Assembly: GCF_003058365.1 (NCBI RefSeq)
Contig: NZ_CP028858.1
Coordinates: forward strand, 1 to 64,000
Source: Halococcoides cellulosivorans
GTDB taxonomy: Archaea; Halobacteriota; Halobacteria; Halobacteriales; Haloarculaceae
DNA: 64,000 nucleotides
Reading direction: 5' to 3'
Within the stretch, counting starts at the first letter, position 1; every line of letters begins with the position of its first letter. The notes under the pieces were generated by a model that had not been told where the DNA came from, searched no databases, and worked only from the letters and a program-made list of their open reading frames with translations. A program made the position numbers and the translations under genes. Positions 26,139 through 48,898 of the stretch are shown piece after piece.

Positions 26139-28763
26139 ATGGTACGAATGCACTCCCTCCTCGACGCTGGAGCCGACGACAGCGCTTCCCGCCGTGAGTC
26201 GGCGCGTCGAGCACTTTCGCCCGTCATGGGGACGGTGATGATCTTCGCGTTCGTGCTGGTGGCCGTGATGGTGGTGGCGGGGCTGGGGACCAACGCTATG
26301 GAGCTGTCCCGTGATGAGGCCGAGACCCAGCAGGTCAGGCTGTCGTTGCAGGAACTGGCCGACAGGAGTGCGTCGGTCGCGGGTGACCCCGGCCGAAGCG
26401 CGCAGGTCGCACTGTCGGCGGAGGGCCGTACCGTCGACCCGGAGGCCGGCACCGTTCGGGTGGACGTCAGATCGTCGAGCGGGAACTCCCAGACCGAGCG
26501 GACACTCGGGGCGGTGCGGTACGATCGCGACGGTGCAATCGTCGCCTACCAGGGTGGCGGCGTCTGGCAGTCCGAGACCGGGAGCGACAGCGTGAGCGTC
26601 GTCTCGGCCCCGCCGGTCGAGTACCGCAATCGGACCGCGCCCACGCTGACGATACCGATCCTCCGGATCGCGGGTGACTCGGGCGTCGGTGACTCGCTGA
26701 CCGTCGCGTCGTCGGGGTCGGCCACGTCGCTGATCCCGGCGTCGATGGTGCCGCTCCCCCCGGATTCGTCGGTGAACATCACCGTCGAGAGCGAGTTCTA
26801 TCGCGGCTGGGGGCAGGTGTTCGAAGACCAGCTGCCCAGCGCCTCTGTCTCGTACGATCACACCGCAAACGCAGTGACGATCCGGCTGCTCGGGCCCGAG
26901 AGCGCCCCCGCGGCGACGAACGCCGCCCGTGTCGACGGGGCCGTGGTCTCGACCACCGGTGGCCACTTCTCGAACAACGCGACGGTGAACAGCTACAACC
27001 CCGCCGGGGTGAGTGGCGGTCCGCTCGGGACGGTCCGGGTCTCAGACGCGATGAACTCCACGCAGTGGACGAGGATCAACGGGCCGCTGCACGTGGACAA
27101 CGACCTCCGGAGCGACCTGCACTTCTCCGTCGCGGGCGAGACCCGGGTCGCGGGCGATGCGAACTTCACGAACAACAACAGCTACCGCGGCCCGGTTTCA
27201 GTCGGTGGAAACCTCGGGAGTGACGCTTCTGACGGCGCAGAGCACATTTCCCTGCACTCGGATTTGCGCGTCGGCGGGTTCGCGGGCTACGAACCGGACG
27301 GGCTTCGCCACCTCCAGGTCGACGGCGATTTCGATGTCGGGACCGACGCCGATCTGGGCAGCGAGACGATCGTCGGTGGCACGCTCACGGCGGGCGATTC
27401 GGTCCGACTCCAGCACGACAGCACGACCGTCCACGGCGACATCGTCGCCGGTGAGACGGTCAGGGTGGTGAAAGGGCACGTCGAGGGCGACATCGTCGCC
27501 GGCGGTGACGTGATCGTCTTCCACAGCGCGACGGTCGAGGGGACGATCGAGGCCGACGGCGACGTGATCGTCCGCCACCGTGATGGGTACACCGCGTCGG
27601 CGGTCACGCCCGAGCGCGTCGTGGCCGGCGGCGACATTCGCGTCGAAGACGGCACCTCCCTGCGCCCCGCGGACAACACGCCCGGCGTGAACGAGCGGAT
27701 GGCGATCGCCGGCGACGACGTGATCGTCGAGGAGGACGGCCTCCTGCAGGCCGCGACGTACGCGAGCAACGGCGACGGCGGCGACGCGGTCGTCCTGCAG
27801 GGAAACACCTCGAAACTCGACGGCCACGTCGTCGTGCCGTCGGCGGATCGGGTCGTCGTCGAGAACACTGCCGCCGAGTACACGTGCTCGGACCGCGGCG
27901 GCCCGAGCGATCCGACGGATCAGCCGACGGGCGATTCCGGCCGGATCACCGGCTGTGTCGAGGAACAGTCCCCGCCGAGTGAACAGCCGACGATCCCCGA
28001 GCCGTCGGCCCCCGCGACGCCGCTCGCCCCGATCATGAACGACGACCGGCCTGCCGCCGCCGACATCGTCGAAGACCACCGTCATCTGCAGGACGATCCC
28101 GACAGCTCGCCGCTGATCTCCGACGGCGGGAAGATGCCTGCCTGGGGGACCTGTGACCCCTCGTGTACGCTCGGGGCCGGTAACTACTCGATGAGTCAGA
28201 TCAGCGTCGGGCCCGACACCGAACTGACATTCGACACCTCCGAGGGCGACATCAACGTCTTCCTGACCGGGTCGTTCGACGTGCTGGACTGGGGTGGATC
28301 GATGGCAGATGCCGGTGAGGTCCACGTCGCCGGCGACGGCCGCGTCTCGATCTACCAGACCGGCCGTCCGGCGACCATCCAGATGGGCGGGACGCTCACC
28401 ACCGAGACCGGCAGTGCCGACCAGTTCTGGCTCTACCAGAAACCCGATCCGTCCGCGTTGGGCCCAGGGTTCACCGTCGGGTCGGGGTCCTCCGAGCAGT
28501 ACCCTTCGACGTTCACGGGCGTGTTCTACGGCTACGACTCCGACGGGCCGGGTGTCTCCTACCGGGTCGACTCTCACTCCGAGGTCAACGGCGCGCTGGT
28601 CGGATCGGTCGACGGCGTCACGAACCACGCGGTGATCTCGTACGACGAGTCGCTGACGAGAGACCCACCCGCCGACGATGAGGACGACGACTCTGGCCCC
28701 GGTCTGGCACACGTCGTCTACGTTCAGACCGAAGATCGGTCCGTGACGGTCGGGGCCGGATGA
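26139..28763 (+). CDS. Giant pilin-like protein 1 (DUF7289-like head, beta-helix middle, DUF7305-like tail)
   Basis: An 874-aa exported surface protein. A short basic leader with RRALSPV (about 23-29) precedes one hydrophobic helix (about 30-52), the archaeal type IV pilin class III signal type. A region like DUF7289 spans about 30-265. The middle (about 265-600) shows short repeats such as GDIVAGETVRVV and GDVIVFHSATVEGTIEADG, which read as a bactofilin-like beta-helix. A cysteine-containing linker, then a C-terminal domain with FTGVFYGYDSDGP and NGALVGSVDG (DUF7305-like). It is the first of three tandem paralogues. Alternative start ATG 26148. Confidence 0.8.
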   Translation: MVRMHSLLDAGADDSASRRESARRALSPVMGTVMIFAFVLVAVMVVAGLGTNAMELSRDEAETQQVRLSLQELADRSASVAGDPGRSAQVALSAEGRTVDPEAGTVRVDVRSSSGNSQTERTLGAVRYDRDGAIVAYQGGGVWQSETGSDSVSVVSAPPVEYRNRTAPTLTIPILRIAGDSGVGDSLTVASSGSATSLIPASMVPLPPDSSVNITVESEFYRGWGQVFEDQLPSASVSYDHTANAVTIRLLGPESAPAATNAARVDGAVVSTTGGHFSNNATVNSYNPAGVSGGPLGTVRVSDAMNSTQWTRINGPLHVDNDLRSDLHFSVAGETRVAGDANFTNNNSYRGPVSVGGNLGSDASDGAEHISLHSDLRVGGFAGYEPDGLRHLQVDGDFDVGTDADLGSETIVGGTLTAGDSVRLQHDSTTVHGDIVAGETVRVVKGHVEGDIVAGGDVIVFHSATVEGTIEADGDVIVRHRDGYTASAVTPERVVAGGDIRVEDGTSLRPADNTPGVNERMAIAGDDVIVEEDGLLQAATYASNGDGGDAVVLQGNTSKLDGHVVVPSADRVVVENTAAEYTCSDRGGPSDPTDQPTGDSGRITGCVEEQSPPSEQPTIPEPSAPATPLAPIMNDDRPAAADIVEDHRHLQDDPDSSPLISDGGKMPAWGTCDPSCTLGAGNYSMSQISVGPDTELTFDTSEGDINVFLTGSFDVLDWGGSMADAGEVHVAGDGRVSIYQTGRPATIQMGGTLTTETGSADQFWLYQKPDPSALGPGFTVGSGSSEQYPSTFTGVFYGYDSDGPGVSYRVDSHSEVNGALVGSVDGVTNHAVISYDESLTRDPPADDEDDDSGPGLAHVVYVQTEDRSVTVGAG

Positions 28764-29050
28764 GACGGACGGATCCAGTGGGTCCGGGCGATCGACCACG
28801 CGGGGACAGTCGGTTGACTGGCCCCTTTCGCAGCGTTATTAGAACCAAAATCTAGAATACATCGCGGTATACCGTCCATACCCCCTCCTCGATCAGACAC
28901 GAAGATGGCTTAATTCAACTATATTGCCGATCTAGCGGCGTTTCTCCCCGGTTCAATCGGTGATAACTATATTATTTCGTTATTGATCGTGGGAATACCG
29001 GCGGCGAACTTATTCGCTCTGGCCCCCTAGATTTGATCACGCGTGGGGAC
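28764..29050. other. AT-rich intergenic region before giant pilin-like gene 2
   Basis: A 287-bp gap clearly AT-richer than its surroundings, with GGTATACC palindromic bases near 28869, AACTATATTG and AACTATATTATTTCG runs. Candidate TATA CTTATTCG (about 29010-29017) lies 35-40 bp before the ATG at 29051. No ORF with coding character was seen. Confidence 0.5.
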
Positions 29051-31642
29051 ATGAATAACCATTATAAATTCGCGAGCGGGGACCGCGCCGTTTCGCCAGT
29101 TCTCGGCACGGTGTTCGTCTTCGCGTTCGTCGTTCTCGTCGCGGGTGGGATCGTGCTGGCGGGGGCGAGTGCGGTGGACCTCTCGAAAGAGCAGGCCGAG
29201 ACCAAGCAGGTCCGCCTCTCGATGCAGGAACTCGCGGATTCGGCTTCCTCGGTGGCGGGTGAAGACGGCCGGAGCAGACAGATCGACCTCTCGCGCGCGG
29301 GGAGTCGCATCGACGCCACGGACGGGGCGATCCGGATCGCGATCGACAACGGGACCGAAACCTGGTCGGCCGAGCGCACGCTCGGATCGGTCGGCTACGA
29401 GCGTTCCGAGACGACGATCGCCTACCAGGGCGGTGGCGTCTGGGAGAAAGCGCCAGACAGCGATAGCGTGAGTGTGGTCTCGCCGCCGCCGATCGACTAC
29501 CGGACGCGTGGCGAACCGACGCTCTCGGTCCCGGTAATCCGTGTCGTCGGCGGGTCACAGGCCGGCGACTCGCTGACGGTCGAATCCGCGGGGTCGGCGG
29601 CCGCGCTGATTCCGTCCTCGAAAGTGCCCCTCGAACCCGGCTCGACGGTGAATTTGACCGTCGAAAGTGCATACTACCGCGGCTGGGGGCAGGTCTTCGA
29701 ACGCCAACTCGGCAGCGCGCCGGTCAGCTACAACGCGACCGCGAAGACGGTCACGGTCTCGCTCGTCCGCGGTGACGACGTGGCCGATTCCACGATCCGG
29801 AGTAGCGTGTACTCCCAGAACGTCACCTCGCTCGGCGGCGTCTCGAATCACGGGGCGGTCGGGAGTTACGACTCTACGGGCGCCACCGGTTCGAACGGCG
29901 CAGCCCGCTTCGAGGACGACATCAGCCTGACGAACAACGCACGGATCGGCGGTGAACTCCACATCGACGGCAATCTGACCACCGACAAGGAGTTCTCGGT
30001 GACCGGGCCGGCCCGCGTCGGCGGGACCGCACACGTGCAAAACGAGAACACCTTCGAGGACTCGCTGTCGGTCGGTGAGGATCTGATCGTCAGCGGCGGT
30101 GGCGCGAACGATCCCCGTGAGTTCCAGGGCCCCGTTCGCGTCGGTGGGACGTTCACCGGCCTGAGCGGTCGGCCGATCACGGACACGCACGCCCACGACG
30201 ACGTTTCGGTCGCCGCCGGGATGGAGGTCGGCAGTAGCGCCCGGATCGGGGGCACGCTCACCGCCGACGGGACGGTCAGGCTGCTGGCCACCCCGACCTT
30301 TGCGGGCGAGACGGTCGGCGGCGACGTGATCGGCGGCAGTGAGGTGTACGTCGACGGCGGGTCGGTCGGCGGGAGCGTCTTCACCGACGGCGACGCCCAC
30401 GTCGTCGACGGCACCGTCAAGGGAAGCGTCGAGGCGGGCGGTACCGTCCACCTCCACAAGTCCGGGACGGTCGACGGCCCGATCCGGGCCGCTGGCGACG
30501 TGATCGTCTACGGTGGCCAGCACAGCACGCTCGACCGGATCGAGGCCGGCGGTGACGTCGTCCTCCACCCGGGCGCGAGCGTGACGCCCAAGGGTGACGA
30601 AGTCGGTGTCGAGCGCATCGTCGTGGCCGACAAGGACGTCGTGTTGAAAGAGTCGAGCTCGTACTACGGGACGCGATCCGCGTCGCTGCAAGCCGACGTC
30701 TACGCTGCCAACGCCGACGGCTCCTACGCCGTCCACCTCGAAGGGTCGAAGACCCAGATCAAGGGTGACGTCTACGTCCACGACGCCACCAACGTGAAGG
30801 TCGGCTACAGCTACGACGACTACCGGTGTACGTCGACGGAGACCACCGACAAGCGGATCACCGGCTGTATTGCCGAGGAAGAGCCCCTGGGCGAGCAGGT
30901 CAGCCCCCCGCCGAGTCTGCCCGCCGAGGCGCCCGCCGCGCCCCAGTCACCGACGATCTACTCCGAGAAGCGCTCGGTGAACGACATCGTCGCGGCCCAC
31001 GAACACCTCCAGACCAACCCCGACACCTCCCCGATCATCCAGGACGGCGAGATCGCGAGCACGAACGGCTGTTCGGGGACCTGTACGCTCACTGCGGGCC
31101 AGTACGCCCTGGACCGGATCGACATCGCTGAGGGTGACGAACTCGTGATGGACACGTCCGGGGGCCCGATCGAGATCTACGTCACCGAGGAGATCCAGGT
31201 CGGGGCCGGCGACCCCGGTCGCATCCACGTCGCGGGGAACGATCGCGTCACGATCTACCACGAGGGCCACGAGACCCGCCTCCAGGCCAACTCGCGCGTG
31301 ACGACCGAGTCCGGGAGCGCCCGACAGCTCTGGATCTACCAGACGCCCGATCCCATCGACAACGATCCCGACTTCATGGTCGGCAGTGAGGGCACGAACG
31401 CACCCAGTTTCACGGGGGTGTTCTACGGCTACAACCCCGACGGGCCCGACACGCGCTTCCGTCTCGACGACGATGGGACGGTCTACGGCGCGGTGCTCGG
31501 AGAGATGGCCGGTATCGTCGAACACGGCGCCGTGTACTACGACGAGACGCTCGCGAGTGCGACCGTCGAGGACGACAGCGACTCCACCAGCGCGGAGGTC
31601 GTCTACCTCCAGAGCGAGGACCGGTCGGTCACCGTCGGCTGA
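29051..31642 (+). CDS. Giant pilin-like protein 2 (paralogue of 26139 gene)
   Basis: An 863-aa paralogue of protein 1 with the same parts in the same order: DRAVSPVLGTVF at 11-22 and a hydrophobic helix (about 16-40); shared landmarks QAETKQVRLSMQELADSASS, AYQGGGVW, DSDSVSVVSPPP, YYRGWGQVFE; beta-helix repeats (about 270-560, for example GSVFTDGDAHVVDGTVKG); a Cys-bearing region around CTSTETTDKRITGC; and the C-terminal FTGVFYGYNPDGP and YGAVLGEMAG. The ATG at 29051 is preferred; a TTG six codons earlier is in frame. Surface filament or matrix role inferred from family resemblance. Confidence 0.8.
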   Translation: MNNHYKFASGDRAVSPVLGTVFVFAFVVLVAGGIVLAGASAVDLSKEQAETKQVRLSMQELADSASSVAGEDGRSRQIDLSRAGSRIDATDGAIRIAIDNGTETWSAERTLGSVGYERSETTIAYQGGGVWEKAPDSDSVSVVSPPPIDYRTRGEPTLSVPVIRVVGGSQAGDSLTVESAGSAAALIPSSKVPLEPGSTVNLTVESAYYRGWGQVFERQLGSAPVSYNATAKTVTVSLVRGDDVADSTIRSSVYSQNVTSLGGVSNHGAVGSYDSTGATGSNGAARFEDDISLTNNARIGGELHIDGNLTTDKEFSVTGPARVGGTAHVQNENTFEDSLSVGEDLIVSGGGANDPREFQGPVRVGGTFTGLSGRPITDTHAHDDVSVAAGMEVGSSARIGGTLTADGTVRLLATPTFAGETVGGDVIGGSEVYVDGGSVGGSVFTDGDAHVVDGTVKGSVEAGGTVHLHKSGTVDGPIRAAGDVIVYGGQHSTLDRIEAGGDVVLHPGASVTPKGDEVGVERIVVADKDVVLKESSSYYGTRSASLQADVYAANADGSYAVHLEGSKTQIKGDVYVHDATNVKVGYSYDDYRCTSTETTDKRITGCIAEEEPLGEQVSPPPSLPAEAPAAPQSPTIYSEKRSVNDIVAAHEHLQTNPDTSPIIQDGEIASTNGCSGTCTLTAGQYALDRIDIAEGDELVMDTSGGPIEIYVTEEIQVGAGDPGRIHVAGNDRVTIYHEGHETRLQANSRVTTESGSARQLWIYQTPDPIDNDPDFMVGSEGTNAPSFTGVFYGYNPDGPDTRFRLDDDGTVYGAVLGEMAGIVEHGAVYYDETLASATVEDDSDSTSAEVVYLQSEDRSVTVG

Positions 31643-31693
31643 CGCTCGCGACGAGAGTTTCGACCCCACCGCTGGCGAGAATTCAGGGGTCGA

Positions 31694-31777
31694 CTACAGC
31701 AACACGGCGCCGTAGATGATTCCCGACCCGATCATCAAGGCCACGAAAAACAGCGCGATGATCTGTTGACGGTCCAT
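31694..31777 (-). CDS. 27-aa hydrophobic microprotein, candidate
   Basis: A short frame reading MDRQQIIALFFVALMIGSGI then IYGAVLL and stop. A charged start, a single hydrophobic helix and no polar tail resemble very small haloarchaeal membrane peptides I have seen starting MDR. It lies on the minus strand between two giant pilin-like genes. A GGTACAGTC element lies about 35 bp upstream. Too short for codon statistics; the hydrophobic pattern is the main support. Confidence 0.45.
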   Translation of the reverse strand: MDRQQIIALFFVALMIGSGIIYGAVLL

Positions 31778-31998
31778 ACCGATTCTTCGGGGTCCATTCG
31801 GAAGACTGTACCGCCTCGGAGTGCGCCCGTCCCCCGTCCTGCGTTTCGACTGCAGACAGCCACGCAGAACGGCGCCAACCGTAGATTCATCGTTCGTTTT
31901 CAGAAAACAATCGGGGTGTGTCGCGCCCTTCGTTTCACCTGGACACCCACTATCTTTATGCACGCGCGGGCGTTAGTTGTCCATAATTAGTTCCTACC

Positions 31999-33975
31999 AT
32001 GTACACCCTATTCCGTGATACAATCGGTGGTGATCGCCGCGGGGTCTCTCACGTCCTGGGAGTCGTGCTCCTCGTCGGTATCGTGATGGCCGCAGTGGGG
32101 ATGATCGCGATGGTGGGGGCGAGTACGATCAACAGCTCCCAGGATCAAGTCGAGTACGAGCGGGCGAAACTCGCGATGGGCGAACTCGCCGACTCGGCCA
32201 AAGCCACCGGTGGCGGCGTCAACGGCAGCGTGGACTTCGGGCCACAGGCCGCGAGCAAACTCTCTATCGACGAGTCCGCGGGCACGTTCAACGTCACGAA
32301 CGTCTACGAGAACGGGTCGGTCAACGAGGCGACGACGAACGGCAAGACCACCCGGACGCTCGGGAAGGTCGTCTACCAGCAGGGGAATCGCGAGGTCGCG
32401 ATGCAGGGTGGCGGCGTCTTCGTGAAGAGTAGCGATTCGGACGCGTCGGTGTTCGATCAGCGCCCGGCGGTGTCCTACCGATCGAACGTGGGCCAGTACC
32501 CCACGCTGTCGATGTCCGTGATTCAGGTCCGGGGTGAGACCCGCAGTGGGAACGTCCGGCTCTCGGGCGGGACCAACATGAGCAACATGCTCGAAGACGC
32601 CGAACTGCCCGGTGGGTCGACGCTCAAGATCAACGTCACCAGCGAGTACTACCAGGCGTGGGGCGCGGTGTTCAACGAATCGGCGGGGATTCCCGAGGAC
32701 CACATCACCTACCACGACGCTGCAAAGACCGTCGAGATCGACCTGACGATTCAGCGGCCCCAGTACACGCCTGTGAGTGGGGCGATCGTTTCCCCGACGG
32801 GCGGACTGAATGGCAATTTTGATGGGGATAATATTGTTGGTGCGTATCCCGACGACATGGATGGCAACCCGACGGTTGTGATTGGGCCAGACCCGACCAA
32901 AGGCCACGGTTACATATCCTCTGGAGTGATAAAGGGGAACCTTCGGGTCAATGGATCCCTCCAAATTGGTAATCCCTTTGAGGTCAAAAATGAAACTTAC
33001 GTCGATGGTTATTTGAGCGATGGGGGTGGCGCAACGTTCAATGAGACGGTATACGTATCTGGAAATATATCTGAAATTCAATCAGATTCCACCATGTTCG
33101 AGCAGGACTTAGTAGTCGGTGGAGATTTATCGATGGGTGATGACATTACCGAATCGGAGCTGAAAGGAGATCTATATGTACATGGTGATACGAATGGGAA
33201 TCTTGGTCCTAATGTAACGAATTTAGGAGATGCTAAGGGGGTCAAAACTCCACCTACCGACCCGGAAGATGCGAATTCTGGTCGCCATTTCGTAGAAAAA
33301 TACTCTCACATCAAAGACCCGGCGAACAACAACAATTCTGACAATTGTCTGGACGCAAGTGGCGAATGGGTTGCTTCTTCAAGTTGCACCTTGGATGCTG
33401 GGGACTACTATATGCATGAATCTAATATGATCGATGACGACATTTTGCTCAACACGAGCAATGGCAGCATAAATATCTACATAGAAAATAAAGATTCAAA
33501 GACCATTAAGTTCAAAAATAATATCAAACATATAGATGGTGACTCCCCGGTGCACATTTATTACGATGCCTCAACTGCTACCGGAAATAAAGGGATCAAT
33601 TTCATGAAGCCGACCCACCACCCCGAATCGTTCGTAGGGACTATATCACGAGATGCCCGGTTATTCAAGTTGTATGTTAATGGTTCTGGCGAGTCCAACG
33701 CTGATATTCGGTTCAACAATCACAATAACTTCACTGGCCTACTCTATGGCCTTGGTGGGGGTGATGCCAATCCAGCCAATGTCGAAATCGGGGATGATAC
33801 CGTGATCAACGGAGCAGTATTGGGTAAAGTGACTAAGTATGATTCTGATACTGAACTCCACTACGACCGCCGCCTCGGTGATCTCGGGTTCGGCACACGA
33901 GACGCGAGTAGCGGGTCGATCCCGAAGGGCGAAGTGCGGTACGTGTACATCTCCGACGTGCAAGCGTCGGCCTGA
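31999..33975 (+). CDS. Giant pilin-like protein 3, mosaic composition
   Basis: A 658-aa relative of the two upstream proteins, with DRRGVSHVLGVVLLVGIVM at about 12-30 as a pilin-type export segment, then QVEYERAKLAMGELADSAKA and AMQGGGVFVKSSDSD landmarks. The middle (about 268-615) is shorter, Asn-rich, with many N-x-S/T sites, and still holds beta-helix-like blocks (YVDGYLSDGG, VGGDLSMGDD). The C-terminal region has FTGLLYGLGGGD and NGAVLGKVT. DNA of the first 800 bp and last 125 bp is normal GC; the middle is strongly AT-rich (bases 33481-33540 have 13 G+C of 60). A likely replaced or acquired middle. CTTTATGC (31955-31962) may be its TATA box. Confidence 0.8.
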   Translation: MYTLFRDTIGGDRRGVSHVLGVVLLVGIVMAAVGMIAMVGASTINSSQDQVEYERAKLAMGELADSAKATGGGVNGSVDFGPQAASKLSIDESAGTFNVTNVYENGSVNEATTNGKTTRTLGKVVYQQGNREVAMQGGGVFVKSSDSDASVFDQRPAVSYRSNVGQYPTLSMSVIQVRGETRSGNVRLSGGTNMSNMLEDAELPGGSTLKINVTSEYYQAWGAVFNESAGIPEDHITYHDAAKTVEIDLTIQRPQYTPVSGAIVSPTGGLNGNFDGDNIVGAYPDDMDGNPTVVIGPDPTKGHGYISSGVIKGNLRVNGSLQIGNPFEVKNETYVDGYLSDGGGATFNETVYVSGNISEIQSDSTMFEQDLVVGGDLSMGDDITESELKGDLYVHGDTNGNLGPNVTNLGDAKGVKTPPTDPEDANSGRHFVEKYSHIKDPANNNNSDNCLDASGEWVASSSCTLDAGDYYMHESNMIDDDILLNTSNGSINIYIENKDSKTIKFKNNIKHIDGDSPVHIYYDASTATGNKGINFMKPTHHPESFVGTISRDARLFKLYVNGSGESNADIRFNNHNNFTGLLYGLGGGDANPANVEIGDDTVINGAVLGKVTKYDSDTELHYDRRLGDLGFGTRDASSGSIPKGEVRYVYISDVQASA

Positions 33976-34453: not shown

Positions 34454-35176
34454 TCACACCGACAGCGAGATGTCGAGCACCACTTCACGGACGATAGCAT
34501 TCGATGTGCTGATCGTACAATCGACGGTCTCGCCACTCACCGAACAGGAGGCGTCTTCATTGAGCATGCGCCGCCACGCCTCAGCCCGCGCCTCACTCAC
34601 GGTGTCGATCTCTACCGTGACGCTGCTGGCCGACCCGTTGTGCAGGACCTGGCTGTTCGTCCGGTACAGTTCCACGATGGCCGAGGAGCCACTCACCGAA
34701 CTCGACCCCGAGGCCGTGGTTTGGACGATCGGGAGGATTACCGGCCCGTCGAGTTTCCACCCGGGCCCACGGAGCATCGACGCGCCGCCGCCACCCTCGT
34801 ACAGTAGCGCCCCGCCGACGTAGACGTACGTCGCGCCGTTGCCCTCGTAGACTAGCGGCGTCGTCGATGCGTTGATGACCTCGTCGTCCGGATCGGTTCC
34901 GTCCACGCTGACTGTGAACGTCACTTCCTCACCGCTCCGCAACGTCCCACCCGCCGTCGAGAGCGGGACGGTCCGCCCTGGGGCCTGGCCCTGGTGGACC
35001 TGCTCGCCGGCGTTGGCGACCAGTTCCATGCTCGTCCGGGCGTTGGCCGCGCTGGCCGAGTCCCGCGAGGCTTCGAGACTCCCGACGCCGGCGATCGCGA
35101 CCGTGCTGATCGTGACGATCACGATCGCGAAGACCAGGATGTACCCCAGCGTCTCGCTGACGGCGCGGTTATCCAT
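34454..35176 (-). CDS. Pilin-like protein, DUF7289-like
   Basis: A 240-aa protein starting MDNRAVSETLGYILVFAIVI, an archaeal pilin-type signal with one hydrophobic helix (about 8-31). It is related to the N-terminal third of the giant proteins: shared order of a helix, an A-R-x-S-M-E-L heptad-like region, an acid-rich strand, YEGNGATYVYVGGALLYEGGG and the ILPIVQ block. So the giant proteins look like this small one with added modules. It has the pair Cys217/Cys224-like (CSVSGETVDC) near the C-terminus. Last gene of the minus-strand operon, overlapping its upstream neighbour by 8 bp. Confidence 0.75.
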   Translation of the reverse strand: MDNRAVSETLGYILVFAIVIVTISTVAIAGVGSLEASRDSASAANARTSMELVANAGEQVHQGQAPGRTVPLSTAGGTLRSGEEVTFTVSVDGTDPDDEVINASTTPLVYEGNGATYVYVGGALLYEGGGGASMLRGPGWKLDGPVILPIVQTTASGSSSVSGSSAIVELYRTNSQVLHNGSASSVTVEIDTVSEARAEAWRRMLNEDASCSVSGETVDCTISTSNAIVREVVLDISLSV

Positions 35177-35606
35177 TGGTCACCTCCAGGTCGCCACCGC
35201 TGTTACTGACCGTGATCGGCCCGCCGGGCAGTTCGTACTCGGCGGCGAGCGAGACGGTCGGTCCGAGGTCGATCGTCGGTGAACGGGGGACTCGGTCCGA
35301 GCGGAGGGTGATACTTGCGGGTGAGGTCTCGATATCGATCGTGTAGCTCGTCCCCGCGATGCGGCGGGGCAGGTCACAGGTCTTCTCGTAGGTGGGAGCA
35401 CTTGCCGAGTCGACCGTCCGCTGGGCGGACTGGAGACAGCCGGCGACTCGCTCGTTGACGACCTCCAGTTGCGTGTTGACCACGCGGTCGCGCTCGTTGT
35501 CGAGATACGTCGTCGCGGCGGTAAAGGCCACGACGAGGAGGATCAGCGCGATGGCGATGACCAACGCGTGGGCGAACACCGTCGAGGCCGCACGGTCGTC
35601 CATCAT
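35169..35606 (-). CDS. Pilin-like secreted protein, DUF7266-like
   Basis: A 145-aa protein with a short charged start (MMDDRAAST), a hydrophobic helix (about 10-33) and an exported domain with two Cys (CLQSAQ and TCDLP) that could pair. Fits a haloarchaeal family I recall as DUF7266, always found in clusters of this kind. Overlaps its upstream and downstream genes by 4 and 8 bp, consistent with translational coupling. Function unknown; probably a minor pilin-like component. Confidence 0.65.
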   Translation of the reverse strand: MMDDRAASTVFAHALVIAIALILLVVAFTAATTYLDNERDRVVNTQLEVVNERVAGCLQSAQRTVDSASAPTYEKTCDLPRRIAGTSYTIDIETSPASITLRSDRVPRSPTIDLGPTVSLAAEYELPGGPITVSNSGGDLEVTNG

Positions 35607-36007
35607 GGTTCCTCCACGTTAATCGTGGCCTCGTAGTGGGTCTGTGGGGAGTCGTAGGTGAGTGTTATATCTGCTTCAGAGGGGGTGGCTGTGAAATCGA
35701 CAGAATCGACATCAAGCCGAATGAATCGGTCACCATGGGCGTACTGCGTCCGGAGTGACGATTCGAGGTCGCCCATTATACTCCCGAACTCTCCTGGAGT
35801 TCCTGCCTCCACGATCGCTTCCTGAACCCCGTGCCGGACCTCCTGTTGAATCTGCAAAGCGTCGTCGTCCCGCACGTCGTCGATCCCGTCGATGGAGACG
35901 GTATCGGTCGAAATCGCGGCGTTGACGACGAACGCCAGCGAGACGAAGATCACCGCGACGAGCACGGCCGCGAGCAGGATGACCTGCCCGCGCGAATCAC
36001 TCACCAT
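35603..36007 (-). CDS. Pilin-like secreted protein, DUF7261-like
   Basis: A 134-aa protein starting MVSDSRGQVILLAAVLVAVI, with SRGQ before a hydrophobic helix (about 8-30) as in minor pilin-like proteins of haloarchaea (family recalled as DUF7261). A soluble domain follows without cysteines. ATGA-type overlap with its neighbour. Probably exported and processed by a prepilin peptidase; no such peptidase is in the window. Confidence 0.65.
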   Translation of the reverse strand: MVSDSRGQVILLAAVLVAVIFVSLAFVVNAAISTDTVSIDGIDDVRDDDALQIQQEVRHGVQEAIVEAGTPGEFGSIMGDLESSLRTQYAHGDRFIRLDVDSVDFTATPSEADITLTYDSPQTHYEATINVEEP

Positions 36008-36621
36008 AGCGTCACCTCCACGGTCACCGTGTTGTAGAAGGCACTTGATCCTGCGCCCGACGCCGCGTCCGGTGCGTAAAACGAGTCGTCGACGCTTTTG
36101 ACGGTCATGGCACCGGCGCTTCCGTTCGCGTGGATGATCTCGTCGTTGTCCATCAACGCGACGGTCGTGCTCGCGCTCACCGCGCCGGAGGCCGGGGCGC
36201 CCTGGTAGACCATGCGCTGGAGTTCGCGCTCACCACCCTCCATGTAGTAGAGGTTGACGTTCACCCGGGCGTTGCCGCTATACTCGTCCAGTATCTCGCC
36301 GAGGGCGATTTCCGGAGGCGAGATGTCCTCGTTCGGGTGTGTGTTTCGCCCACCGGCGTAGAAATCTTCGTTCGGCGGGACATAGGGGAAGTTCTCGTCG
36401 CTCTCGTTCCAGAACAGCGTCGCCTCTTTCAGCGCGCCCTCTTCTTGAGCGACGTCGAGGATGCCCTCGGCGGTCGCGCGCCGGTCCTCTGCGACCTGTT
36501 GGCTACCGAGCGATCCCGACTGGGGCGACACCGAGACGGCCTGCATCGCGAAGATGATCGCGAGGACGATCAGCGCCGCGCCGAACACGCCTTCGAGCGT
36601 GTACGTCTGGGCTCGATCCAT
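36001..36621 (-). CDS. Pilin-like secreted protein, DUF7288-like
   Basis: A 206-aa protein starting MDRAQTYTLEGVFGAALIVL, with one N-terminal hydrophobic helix (about 9-30) and an exported domain rich in Ser, Glu and Asn. Family recalled as DUF7288. The stop overlaps the next gene by 7 bp and its start is one base after the stop of the first gene of the operon, so the five genes form one transcription unit. Function unknown. Confidence 0.65.
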   Translation of the reverse strand: MDRAQTYTLEGVFGAALIVLAIIFAMQAVSVSPQSGSLGSQQVAEDRRATAEGILDVAQEEGALKEATLFWNESDENFPYVPPNEDFYAGGRNTHPNEDISPPEIALGEILDEYSGNARVNVNLYYMEGGERELQRMVYQGAPASGAVSASTTVALMDNDEIIHANGSAGAMTVKSVDDSFYAPDAASGAGSSAFYNTVTVEVTLW

Positions 36622-36622
36622 C

Positions 36623-37117
36623 TCAGTAGACCTCCACGACGAGGGTGAGTCGTTCGAACGTCGATGAGCCGGTCTGCAGTCGAACCGGTCGCGAGGCGTA
36701 GCCTGATCCGGAGACGCTCGCGTCGGGGCCGACGGCGTTCCCGTCGTAGATACTTCCGTCAGGTGACCGAAGTGTGACGTTTACCCGGGTGTTCGGGCCC
36801 TCGGTGATGATCTCGTCCCAACTTGGGTCTGCTACGTTTTTCGTGGTGTAACAACTGTCTGTAATGTCTCCACTGCCACTGAAGAATTGATTTGTGCAGT
36901 CCTCGTTCAGCGCCGAGACGTGTTCACTATCCTCTTGCAGTTGCCAGGCGAGATTGCTCGCGATGCGTTCGGCGGCGATGTCGTTGGCCTGTCCGCCGCC
37001 GGCGATGAAGGGGCTGATCAGCGTCGGGATGAAGATGGCCGCGAAGACGAGCGCCAACAGGAACAGACTCGCGCCGATGGCGAAATCCAGCGCGATCTGC
37101 CCGCGCTCGTCGCTCAC
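36623..37117 (-). CDS. Pilin-like secreted protein, DUF7287-like; first gene of operon
   Basis: A 164-aa protein with MSDERGQIALDFAIGASLFL at the N-terminus, one hydrophobic helix (about 10-34) and an exported domain containing two cysteines (CTNQF and CYTTK) likely to pair. Family recalled as DUF7287. The start codon is GTG. It is the promoter-proximal gene of the minus-strand cluster 37117 to 34454. No ATPase or membrane platform for pilus assembly is encoded here, so the machinery must be elsewhere. Confidence 0.65.
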   Translation of the reverse strand: MSDERGQIALDFAIGASLFLLALVFAAIFIPTLISPFIAGGGQANDIAAERIASNLAWQLQEDSEHVSALNEDCTNQFFSGSGDITDSCYTTKNVADPSWDEIITEGPNTRVNVTLRSPDGSIYDGNAVGPDASVSGSGYASRPVRLQTGSSTFERLTLVVEVY

Positions 37118-37231: not shown

Positions 37232-39064
37232 TCAGGACGCGACCGCGCTTTCGAGGTTCAGGCGTGGCGCGATGCCGAGGGCTTTCATCTCGTCGAGCAG
37301 GAGTTTGAACGCGTAACTCATCTCGATTTCGTGGACGTCGGTCTCTTCGCCGCAGTTCGGGCAGTAAACCCGATTCTGGTTGATGTCCTCGACGGCGGTC
37401 ATGCCACACTCCTCGCAGACGTAGAGGAACTCCCGGTCGGACTCGTCGAGCAGGCGCTCTTTGAGCGCGAGCGCCGCGCCGTGCCCGATGAGCACGTCGC
37501 GTTCCATCTCGCCCAGGCGCAGGCCACCCTCGCGGGCGCGCCCCTCGGTGGGCTGGCGGGTCAGCACCTGGACGGGGCCGCGCGAGCGCGCGTGAAGTTT
37601 GTTCGAGACCATGTGGTACAGCTTGTTGTAGAAGATGTCTCCGACGAAGATCTCGGCCTCGATCTTCTCGCCGCTGACGCCCGAGTACATGACCTCCTTG
37701 CCCGAGGACTTGAAGCCGTGCTCTTCGAGGCCCTCGCGCAGACGCTCCTCGTCCTCGCCCGTGAACGGCGTCCCGTCGACGCGTCGTCCTTCGAGAGCGC
37801 CGACCTTCCCGCCGAGCATCTCCAGGATGTGCCCGACGGTCATCCGTGAGGGGAGGGCGTGGGGGTTGAGCACCAGGTCCGCGGTGACGCCTTCCTGGGT
37901 GAACGGCATGTCTTCCTGGGGGGCGATGTGGCCCAGGATTCCTTTCTGGCCGTGCCGGGAGGCGAACTTGTCGCCGAGTTCGGGTTGGCGCTCGTCGCGC
38001 ACTTTGACTTTCGCGAGTTTCGAGCCGTCCTCGCTTTCCATCAGCATGACCGTGTCGACGATGCCGTCCTCGCCCGAGCGCATCGTCACGCTGGTCTCGC
38101 GGCGCTTCTGGGGGCTGAGCCCGCCCATGTCGTCGGGCTCTTCGAGGAAGCGCGGCGGGGAGGTCTTCCCGAGCAACACGGCGTTGTCGCCGACGCGCTC
38201 TTCGGGGTTGATCAGGCCGTCCTCGTCGAGGTGGGTGTAGGCGTCTTCACCGCGCGCGCCACGCACCTCGTCGTCGGGGATCTCGAAGCGGTCCTCCTGT
38301 CCACCGGGATAGCGTCGCTCCTCGCCCTCGTAGGTCCGGAAGAAATGCGAGCGGGCGAGCGCGCGCTCGACCGACCCCTGGTTCATGACGAGCGCGTCCT
38401 CGATGTTGAACCCCTCGTAGCTCATCACCGCGACGGTGAAGTTCTGGCCCGCGGGGCGCTCGTCGTACCCGATCTGGGTGGTCGATTGGGTCGTGACCAT
38501 CGACAACTGCGGGTAGTGAAACAGGTGCTGGCGCGTGTCCGGCCGGACGCGGTAGTTCGCGGCGGGCAGGCCCAGCGACTGGCGGAGCATGCGCGACCCC
38601 ATCGTAATCCGGGGGCTCGCGTTGTGCTCGGGGTAGGGGACCATCCCCGCGCTGATCCCGAAGATCAACTGCGGGTCGATCTCCATGTGGGTGTGATCCT
38701 CGGTCAGATCCTCTGGCTCGACGGCGACGAGGATGTCCTCTTCCTCTTCGGCGTCGATGAACTCGACGTAGCCCTGGTCGACGAGGTCCTCGAAATCGAC
38801 CTCGCCCTCGTGGAGCGCCTCGATCGCTTCCTCGGGGAGCAGCACCTCGCCGTCCTCGACGATCAGCAGGGGTCGCCGCGCCCGACCGGCGTCGGCGTTG
38901 ATGATCACCTCGTCCGTGCGCTGATCCACGGAGACGTTGACCATCTCGCTGATCTCGCCGGTACGGCGGGAATCGCGGATCTGGTCGGCGAGTTGTTCGG
39001 GGTCGGGATGGGTCCCGACCAGGCTACCGTTGACGTACACTTTGGCGTCGCGTCCTTGACTCAT
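37232..39064 (-). CDS. rpoB1: DNA-directed RNA polymerase subunit B' (separate from the rpo operon)
   Basis: A 610-aa C-terminal half of the split archaeal second-largest RNA polymerase subunit. Landmarks: [51 protein letters not shown] (active-centre side), [17 protein letters not shown], and a C-terminal zinc ribbon (CEECG about 556-560, CPNCG about 574-578). Length is normal and no frame breaks are seen. Odd is the location: rpoB'' is not upstream and rpoA' is not downstream; a pilin-like operon follows and a secreted-protein gene precedes. It may be a relocated single gene or a second copy. Confidence 0.95.
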
Positions 39065-46579: not shown

Positions 46580-48898
46580 TCAGAGTGCGCCCTGGTCGAC
46601 CCGATAGATCGTCACCGCGTCGAACTGCCCGACCGGTTCCACCGCGTCGAGGCGCTGAATCGTGATCTGTGAGTACTGCTCGCGTTCTTTCGGGCCGACG
46701 TAGACGTATTCGACGTCGTACTGCCGGAGGAGTTCGCGCTGGCGGTCCACACCGCCGGTGAACATCACATCGACGTGGCCGGCACGCTCGTAGTAGGCGT
46801 CCGGGCCGTGATACCCCGTCTCGTGGACCCAGCCCGCGACCGTCGGGATCCCGGTCAGACTCGACGGGGCGTTGCGCCACTGATAGGGGTCGCGTCCGGG
46901 CCGACTCAGCAGTGTCGGCTGGCCCTCGCGCCGATCGAGCCAGGCGATCGCCCTCGCCTCGTCGGGGTGGTCGGTCTCGACGAACGCGAGCGCGTCGAGA
47001 GAGGGGTCGTCCGTGCGGTGAGTGGGCGACCCGAAGTGCGCGGGCACCGCGAGCGCGGCGTAGATCGACGTCGAGACCACCAACAGCGCCGCGAGGATTT
47101 TGAACCGGCGTCGCCAGGCTGGCCCCGAGAGGCCGAGTCCGGGGCGCTGCTCCGCGATCAGGACGGCGAGCGCGGTGCCCGCGCCGGTCGCGAACAGCAC
47201 CCAGATCTGCATGTACAGTTTGAACACGGTGTTGTACCGCCCGCCGCCGGCGTTCTCTTCGAGGAAGACGAACTCCGCGAGGACGATCAGGCCCGCGCTC
47301 GCGACGACCAACACCGATTCGAACCCCGGGCTGGGCCGGTCGCGAACACTGCCGTCGCGGGCGAGCAGCCAGCCTGCCCCGACCAGCGGCGCGACCACCA
47401 GGAGTGCGGACACCCGGAACCGAATCGCCAGGAACCCCGCGACGGCGAGCGCGAGGGCCGCGATCACGGCGTCGGTCGCGCCGATCCGATCGGTGGTTGT
47501 CCCGAGTCGACCGACGGCGTATCGCGAATAGTGGAGCCCTGCGATCACCAAAAACGCGCCGTGGACGAGGACGAGCGGCACGATCGGGCTCCGATCGGGG
47601 AGGAACCCCATTCCTTCCGAACCGCTCGACACCACCAGCCAGTACGGGAGGACGATCACGACCGAGAGCAGTGCGATCAGCGTCGCACTCCCGAGTGCGA
47701 CGCCCAACCGCCCGAGTTCGCGATCGATCCAGCCTTGCTGCGGCGGGCGGACCCGATCGGGCAACAGCTCTATCGGGTCGGCCGGCGCGAGCACGATCGT
47801 CACGGCGGCGAGGCCGGCGATCGTCGGCATCGACCAGGTGTTGGTCACCGAGACGATCGCTCCGACCGCGGGGAGGCCCACGAACAGGAGTGCGCGCCGC
47901 CGCCAGCGCTGGGCGGCGGGCGTCCGATAGTACCCGAAGAGCACGGTCGCGCCCAGCAGGAGAAACGGCGTGCTCATCATGTGGGCGTGAAGGTCGCCGT
48001 TGAGCCACGCGAACAGCGGGAACTCGTTGATCGTCCCCCCGATCACTCGGCTCGCCGACCAGTAGCCGAAGCTGCCGATCCCGGTCGCGAGCCCGTCGAG
48101 CGGGACGCCGAGGTCGCTCGCGATCGTCTCGACTGTCACCCCGAAGAACGGCACGCGCGCCCCGGTGATCGCGCCGGGTGTCACCAGCCAGAGCAACTGG
48201 GCGGCGGGCATGAGGTTGCTCGCGAGGCCGACGAAAAACGCCGCGAACGCCCCCGCGAGCCGGTCGTCGTGGCCGTGAGCCGTCGCGATGTTCCGCGCGA
48301 GGCCGACCGCGGCCGTGACGACCATCGCATAAAAGCCCGCGAGCGCGAGATTGTAGGCATATCGCGGGGCCGTCCCCGTCAGCCGGGCGAACAGCGCGGC
48401 CAGGAGGTGGCCGCCGTAGTAGTACCGGACGGTCTCGCCCGCGAACCAGACGTCCTGGGGCGGGAGGACCCCACTCCGCAGGAGCGATCGCAACAGTCCG
48501 AAATCGAGGAACTTCTCGCCACCGCCGGGGTGGACGGCGGGGTCGACCGCACGGATCGCGATCAGAAATAGGAACGCGGCGGTGAACACCGCGGCGGTCT
48601 CCGCGAATGCCCGGCGATCGATCGGGCCCGTTCGGCGGTGAGCGAGCAGCGCCGCGGCGACGACGACGCCGACGCCCAGCCACAGCCCCGCGGTGATCGA
48701 GACGCGCCCGACCCAGTAGACGACCAGCCAGATCACCCCCGCCGCGATCGGGAGGCCGACGCCAGCGCCCTCGTCGGAAAGCTGGGGGAGGAGGCTCTTG
48801 GCGATCGCCTGTCCGGCCGCCAGGAGTGCGAGGTAGGTCACCAGCCAGACGGCGACGAGACCGAACTCCATTCGGCGCAACGAACGGGACACGCCCAT
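46580..48898 (-). CDS. DUF2298 polytopic membrane protein
   Basis: A 772-aa protein with about 14-16 hydrophobic segments and the motif TVRYYYGGHLLAAL (about residue 157), the mark of the DUF2298 (YYY) family. A later soluble loop ends with a region like VMFTGGVDRQRELLRQYDVE. These resemble glycosyltransferase-type membrane enzymes, but no activity is established. The start at 48898 directly follows the TAA of the DedA gene (TAAATG), so the two are coupled; the ATG at 48871 is an alternative. Confidence 0.88.
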   Translation of the reverse strand: MGVSRSLRRMEFGLVAVWLVTYLALLAAGQAIAKSLLPQLSDEGAGVGLPIAAGVIWLVVYWVGRVSITAGLWLGVGVVVAAALLAHRRTGPIDRRAFAETAAVFTAAFLFLIAIRAVDPAVHPGGGEKFLDFGLLRSLLRSGVLPPQDVWFAGETVRYYYGGHLLAALFARLTGTAPRYAYNLALAGFYAMVVTAAVGLARNIATAHGHDDRLAGAFAAFFVGLASNLMPAAQLLWLVTPGAITGARVPFFGVTVETIASDLGVPLDGLATGIGSFGYWSASRVIGGTINEFPLFAWLNGDLHAHMMSTPFLLLGATVLFGYYRTPAAQRWRRRALLFVGLPAVGAIVSVTNTWSMPTIAGLAAVTIVLAPADPIELLPDRVRPPQQGWIDRELGRLGVALGSATLIALLSVVIVLPYWLVVSSGSEGMGFLPDRSPIVPLVLVHGAFLVIAGLHYSRYAVGRLGTTTDRIGATDAVIAALALAVAGFLAIRFRVSALLVVAPLVGAGWLLARDGSVRDRPSPGFESVLVVASAGLIVLAEFVFLEENAGGGRYNTVFKLYMQIWVLFATGAGTALAVLIAEQRPGLGLSGPAWRRRFKILAALLVVSTSIYAALAVPAHFGSPTHRTDDPSLDALAFVETDHPDEARAIAWLDRREGQPTLLSRPGRDPYQWRNAPSSLTGIPTVAGWVHETGYHGPDAYYERAGHVDVMFTGGVDRQRELLRQYDVEYVYVGPKEREQYSQITIQRLDAVEPVGQFDAVTIYRVDQGAL

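Follow-up and report, generated by a model that had tools for sequence, protein, structure and literature searches.

Among the described systems, the PilB4-type pilus of Euryarchaeota comprises PilB, TadC and several small pilins (Makarova, Koonin and Albers 2016, PMC4858521). According to the same survey, the PilB4 systems share a minor pilin, arCOG02911, which is duplication-prone, about 250–550 aa in length, all beta and usually FlaFind-positive (PMC4858521). According to a review, two relatively large pilins may make up a structure that PilB4/PilC4 serves (PMC4371748). In bacteria, ComZ of Thermus thermophilus carries a DNA-binding solenoid of about 380 residues inserted in a pilin; its nearest fold is an ice-binding protein, and a tip position has been proposed for it (PMC6561018). 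PilB of Streptococcus sanguinis consists of a pilin carrier and an exchangeable binding module located C-terminal to the pilin module (PMC8179133). A location at the tip of the pilus has been argued for minor pilins with bulky modules, which would act there as adhesins (PMC8179133) or receptors (PMC6561018). The word archaea is absent from the account of modular pilins in PMC8179133, and no literature naming DUF7289 or DUF7305 was found in the library searched.

Three tandem open reading frames on the forward strand of the window (the whole stretch of 64,000 nucleotides that was analysed) encode large pilin-like proteins, here called giants 1–3. Giant 1 (26139..28763, 874 aa) comprises a class III leader up to A25, helix alpha1, a DUF7289 head, a solenoid stalk, DUF7305 and a C-terminal strand. 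Giant 2 (29051..31642, 863 aa) would start at 29033 if an upstream TTG is used, and giant 3 (31999..33975, 658 aa) adjoins a small-pilin operon. The domain order in each was prepilin-type leader, DUF7289, hexad-repeat middle and DUF7305. The class III (prepilin-type) leaders were RR-A|LSPV in giant 1, DR-A|VSPV in giant 2 and RR-G|VSHV in giant 3, and both AlphaFold2 models (giants 2 and 3) placed a helix of about 54 residues after the leader. Pfam Pilin_N matched the giants only below its threshold. In giants 1–3, DUF7289 scored 57–77 bits and DUF7305 61–83 bits, all above the Pfam cut-off of 27. An earlier note on this DNA had described three tandem proteins, each with a pilin-type export signal, DUF7289 and DUF7305, and this was confirmed. 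Its word giant suited giants 1 and 2 best, whose middles of 397 and 415 aa were the longest among 74 aligned homologues, against 194 aa in giant 3 and a median of 137 aa.

The DUF7289 pilin head (PF23960) was located at 26208..26870 in giant 1 (residues 24–244, 57.5 bits), at 29084..29743 in giant 2 (residues 12–231, 59.8 bits, with a long helix at 16–69 in the model) and at 32038..32754 in giant 3 (residues 14–252, 76.8 bits, pLDDT mostly 60–96). DUF7305 (PF23981) occupied 28152..28658 in giant 1 (residues 672–840, 67.9 bits), 31049..31555 in giant 2 (residues 667–835, 83.3 bits, pLDDT about 90) and 33319..33882 in giant 3 (residues 441–628, 61.4 bits). Giants 1 and 2 shared 41.5% identity over the full length, and giant 3 was about 30% identical to giant 1 in the N-terminal half. 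No informative family was obtained for the giants from NCBIfam, the single-sequence search of the PDB yielded nothing useful, and no carbohydrate-binding family was matched in the Pfam search. Giant 3 had a GC3 of 0.64, below that of every other gene called in the window (0.69 to 0.91), which possibly reflects a more recent acquisition. A foreign composition shared by giant 3 and the small-pilin operon was also considered and was dropped on the GC3 values of the window genes. The same genome encodes a fourth giant-like DUF7289 protein of 501 aa near a ribosomal protein S15-like gene (L070 9529–11034), in which the genome search gave no Pfam match to DUF7305.

A hydrophobic repeat with a period of 6 was found in all three middles. 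The lag-6 z-scores against shuffled sequences were +3.4 in giant 1 (26904..27938), +3.6 in giant 2 (29798..30784, residues 250–578) and +3.8 in giant 3 (32794..33273), with lag-3 z-scores from −3.0 to −3.9, and the pilin heads showed no such lag-6 signal in the same test. Global Fourier analysis mostly did not recover this period, probably as a result of insertions and deletions that break the phase, and the lag test was used instead. The AlphaFold2 model of giant 2, built on the alignment of 74 sequences, had a mean pLDDT of 81.4 and comprised a helix (16–69), a beta head (75–239), a ladder of short strands (about 285–577) and a well-predicted DUF7305. Over much of 285–577 the strands of the ladder were 3 residues long and many of them 6 residues apart, with pLDDT mostly 80–90. 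The segment that follows (30785..30970, about residues 579–640; pLDDT about 40) is probably a disordered linker. In the model of giant 3 (pLDDT 71.7), the head and DUF7305 were good and the middle reached only about 31–60. Thus the short beta-helix repeats claimed earlier held in part: the period was present in all three, and a beta-solenoid middle is well supported by the model of giant 2, likely in giant 1 by homology, and suggested in giant 3 by the periodicity, its middle being modelled at low confidence.

Bactofilins are cytoplasmic polymer-forming proteins built as a hexad beta-helix. The Pfam family Bactofilin (PF04519, cut-off 27.9) was matched above its cut-off in giant 2 (residues 395–488, 32.4 bits), below it in giant 1 (residues 394–473, 23.8 bits) and not at all in giant 3. 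By the Pfam cut-off, the bactofilin-like character that had been assigned to all three middles held for giant 2 only. The hexad beta-helix is what the giants and bactofilins share; they differ in that the giants, as the leader suggests, would be exported pilins with a head and a cap, and the leader argues against a cytoplasmic location.

When the DUF7305 sequence profile was compared with the PDB, a bactofilin ranked first (E 0.09), followed by an ice-binding protein (E 0.14), both non-significant. Aligned with DUF3494 domains by hhalign, DUF7305 gave E-values of 2e-5 to 5e-5 as single pairwise comparisons, with 67–78% probability and the same order of motifs, while shuffled or reversed controls gave 0.11–0.55. 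The top five PDB matches of the whole giant 3 model in Foldseek were ice-binding proteins (E 0.012–0.061). The model of giant 2 retrieved generic beta-helices, ice-binding proteins and tapirins, the tapirin domains ranking 5 and 8 (E 0.026 and 0.12). All Foldseek matches of the giants had E-values above 0.008 and low TM-scores, and the DUF7305 parts did not match Pfam Ice_binding (PF11999). Taken jointly, these three weak tests favour an ice-binding-like solenoid for DUF7305. The likeness to DUF3494 proteins consists of the motif order and a solenoid-like model; it concerns the fold and does not imply ice binding.

The relation between the module and the pilin head was examined at the C-terminus. 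The small DUF7289 pilins end in a terminal strand (for example RTYVVYHDIAVEI), and so do the giants (for example RLTYLHVSENRINVTS). The final 14 alignment columns of 64 small DUF7289 pilins were made into a profile and scanned over about 600 windows per giant, and the C-terminus of the giant was the best window in 29/106 and among the top three in 61/106, with a median rank of 2. Control profiles from other blocks of the same alignment were best in 0–9 giants, with median ranks of 12–168. In addition, the DUF7289 match ended at profile position 214–225 of 238 in giants 1–3 and at 235 in the small pilin of this locus. In giant 2, residues 852–862 (31604..31636), which would supply the last strand of the head, formed a strand at high pLDDT in the model. 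Since the C-termini of the giants match the last strand of a small DUF7289 pilin, the solenoid seems to lie inside the pilin fold, and the simplest reading is that the stalk and DUF7305 were inserted before the last strand.

A solenoid placed before the last pilin strand is the plan of ComZ, and both the tail profile and the truncated DUF7289 match pointed to it in the giants. However, the PDB profile search detected no sequence match between ComZ and the giants, and the fold match in Foldseek had an E-value of only 0.99. The giants would thus work like ComZ in plan, and they were not classified as ComZ because no sequence homology was detectable. As in PilB of S. sanguinis, a pilin serves as carrier for an exchangeable module that would bind a ligand, and a vWA domain also occurs in one homologue (see below), but the module of that protein is C-terminal whereas that of the giants is apparently inserted. 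Neither the apparent insertion architecture nor the likeness of DUF7305 to ice-binding solenoids was found in the literature compared.

Downstream of the giants and convergent with them, a reverse-strand operon (37117–34454) encodes five small pilin-like proteins in the order DUF7287-DUF7288-DUF7261-DUF7266-DUF7289. The first gene encodes the DUF7287 protein (36623..37117; PF23958, 111.7 bits), followed by the DUF7288 protein (36001..36621; PF23959, 165.6 bits), the DUF7261 protein (35603..36007; PF23922, 31.5 bits) and the DUF7266 protein (35169..35606; PF23928, 67.9 bits). The last is a small DUF7289 pilin of 240 aa (34454..35176), convergent with giant 3, which matched PF23960 over profile positions 1–235 of 238 with 128.5 bits. 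According to estimates from a simple heuristic gene caller, in a sample that favours giant 2-like proteins and holds some genomes under two locus ids, a giant and the small-pilin operon were convergent in 69/74 loci having both (median gap 24 bp), three or more of the five small pilins were nearby in 73/107 giant loci, fewer than three lay within the stretch examined in 34/107, and PilB or TadC was present in 41/107. Genes for PilB and TadC often stood at the head of the five-pilin operon. There was no PilB in the window. The best PilB/TadC pair of this genome against profiles from giant loci (L177 8054–12576; 1243 and 1041 bits, other pairs tested being lower) was located at about 1.434–1.439 Mb, apart from the giant locus.

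The giant locus is a widespread haloarchaeal pilus locus and resembles the PilB4-type system, which is known in outline (PMC4858521). Several small pilins occur in both, and we infer that the DUF7289 proteins may belong to arCOG02911. The giant locus differs in its three copies of up to 874 aa, in having no PilB/TadC at the locus, and in the solenoid insertion, which is not described in the parts of PMC4858521 compared. DUF7305 was present in 152/243 genomes sampled from the same order. In the sample of the phylum it hardly occurred beyond this order, where a single strong match and a few that were weak and partial were obtained, and in the profile scan of genome contigs the best 80 of 158 relatives of the query were all haloarchaeal. 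The earlier note had regarded the three proteins as the best candidate for an undescribed system in the window and knew of no described haloarchaeal structure of this kind. The first view was not sustained, given this distribution and the PilB4-like character, and the second was too strong. DUF7305 proteins thus exist in over half of the sampled haloarchaeal genomes, yet in the library searched neither this domain nor DUF7289 is named by any paper. The model organism Haloferax volcanii, one of the search controls, had no DUF7305 match, and this may be the reason why the family was missed.

The module was variable on a constant carrier. Like the three giants, 74/74 aligned homologues had a prepilin-type leader, DUF7289 and DUF7305 (both domains at E ≤ 0.001). 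In two other loci, the same syntenic slot was occupied by a protein with DUF7289 and DUF7308, not DUF7305 (L107 7956–9257 and L125 7977–9536). A homologue of 1347 aa (L040 7312–11352, reverse strand) carried thrombospondin type 3 repeats and vWA after DUF7305. Such an exchange of modules on a constant DUF7289 carrier would be expected of an adhesin. Proteins of more than 1000 aa with DUF7289 and CARDB were also observed just past the small-pilin operon in two loci (L123 15759–19496 and L149 15721–18789).

The best explanation is that the giants serve as modular minor pilins in a type IV (Tad-like) pilus of haloarchaea, with an apparently inserted solenoid that is probably exposed at the tip as an adhesin or receptor, and we estimate the probability of this reading at roughly three in four. 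The prepilin peptidase would cut the leader of each giant, and the helix of each would pack into the pilus. The hexad-repeat stalk and the ice-binding-protein-like DUF7305 cap would form one module that precedes the last strand of the head. A module of this bulk would fit best at the filament tip, placed there alongside the five small pilins that the convergent operon encodes, and assembly would depend on a PilB4/TadC-type motor encoded elsewhere, presumably the pair at about 1.434–1.439 Mb. The exposed solenoid would then serve as an adhesin or receptor, with the three copies and the long stalks varying its reach and specificity. The surface location is predicted from the leaders, and the tip position and adhesion are probable by likeness to ComZ and to PilB of S. 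sanguinis (PMC6561018, PMC8179133). Exchangeable beta-solenoid modules in a minor pilin would give DUF7289 and DUF7305 a testable role and extend the modular-pilin idea to archaea.

Other explanations were weighed against the modular minor pilin. The earlier note had proposed that pilin-anchored, self-assembling bactofilin-like beta-helices form a surface polymer of their own. The Bactofilin match and the long regular solenoid in the model of giant 2 agree with this, but Bactofilin was matched in only 8/74 homologues (E ≤ 0.001), the median middle is short, the genes that constantly lie nearby encode pilins and pilus motors, and the solenoid apparently lies within the pilin fold and bears a DUF7305 cap. 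The polymer was not supported and is very improbable. It is somewhat less improbable that the giants serve as subunits of the body or base, or as wall proteins linked to the S-layer in which the pilin leader is a mere membrane anchor; the tandem copies (three here and five in locus L077) and the 34/107 loci lacking three or more small pilins in the stretch examined are in keeping with that, while their conserved convergent arrangement relative to the small-pilin operon and the preserved last strand of the pilin fold speak against it. A role as DNA-uptake receptors, as proposed for ComZ, has in its favour the apparent insertion topology and the ice-binding-like solenoid (PMC6561018). However, the locus offers no sign of DNA uptake, and modules swapped between loci fit varied ligands better than DNA. 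This reading, too, is very improbable.

The binding of insoluble polysaccharide such as cellulose by a tapirin-like device on the pilus would be a specific version of the modular minor pilin, not an alternative to it. Tapirins have an attachment role in Caldicellulosiruptor, and they ranked 5 and 8 among the matches of giant 2. This genome (G000) had 23 GH5 and 3 GH9 matches, and none of 38 relatives had as many. Two of the 243 genomes had at least two GH9 matches, and both had several DUF7305 matches: G000 (3 GH9, 3 DUF7305) and G336 (4 GH9, 5 DUF7305). The latter was taken to be the same species as the host of L077, Natronobiforma cellulositropha, whose cluster of five tandem giants includes the nearest long-stalk homologue. 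However, the link was drawn post hoc from two genomes, the Foldseek E-values were 0.03–0.12, most DUF7305 carriers had no GH9 match, and no carbohydrate-binding family was matched. Polysaccharide binding is possible and yet doubtful. If it were correct, inserted-solenoid pilins may help explain the hold of haloarchaea on insoluble polysaccharides. A bolder form is similarly doubtful: a cellulose- or mannan-gripping archaeal pilus tip, in which ice-binding-like solenoid pilins were multiplied and lengthened in polysaccharide degraders for a tapirin-like role, the ComZ-like plan either having arisen independently or being shared across domains.

The GH5 and GH9 matches make it very likely that G000 is a cellulose- or mannan-degrading haloarchaeon, and its 23 GH5 matches fall within the published range of 5 to 25 per genome in cellulose-using haloarchaea (PMC10267330). 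The PilB4-like gene lies near GH9 and GH5 matches (1.428–1.434 Mb); this proximity was discounted as compatible with chance, there being 26 such matches genome-wide. The only PF00562 (rpoB′) match of the genome stands alone beside the pilin operon (37232–39064 of the window, reverse strand), whereas PF04561 (rpoB″) was matched only at 1.87 Mb, so that the genes for RNA polymerase B lie in separate places. Further along the window, a gene on the reverse strand (46580–48898) encodes a membrane protein of 772 aa that matched DUF2298 (451 bits).
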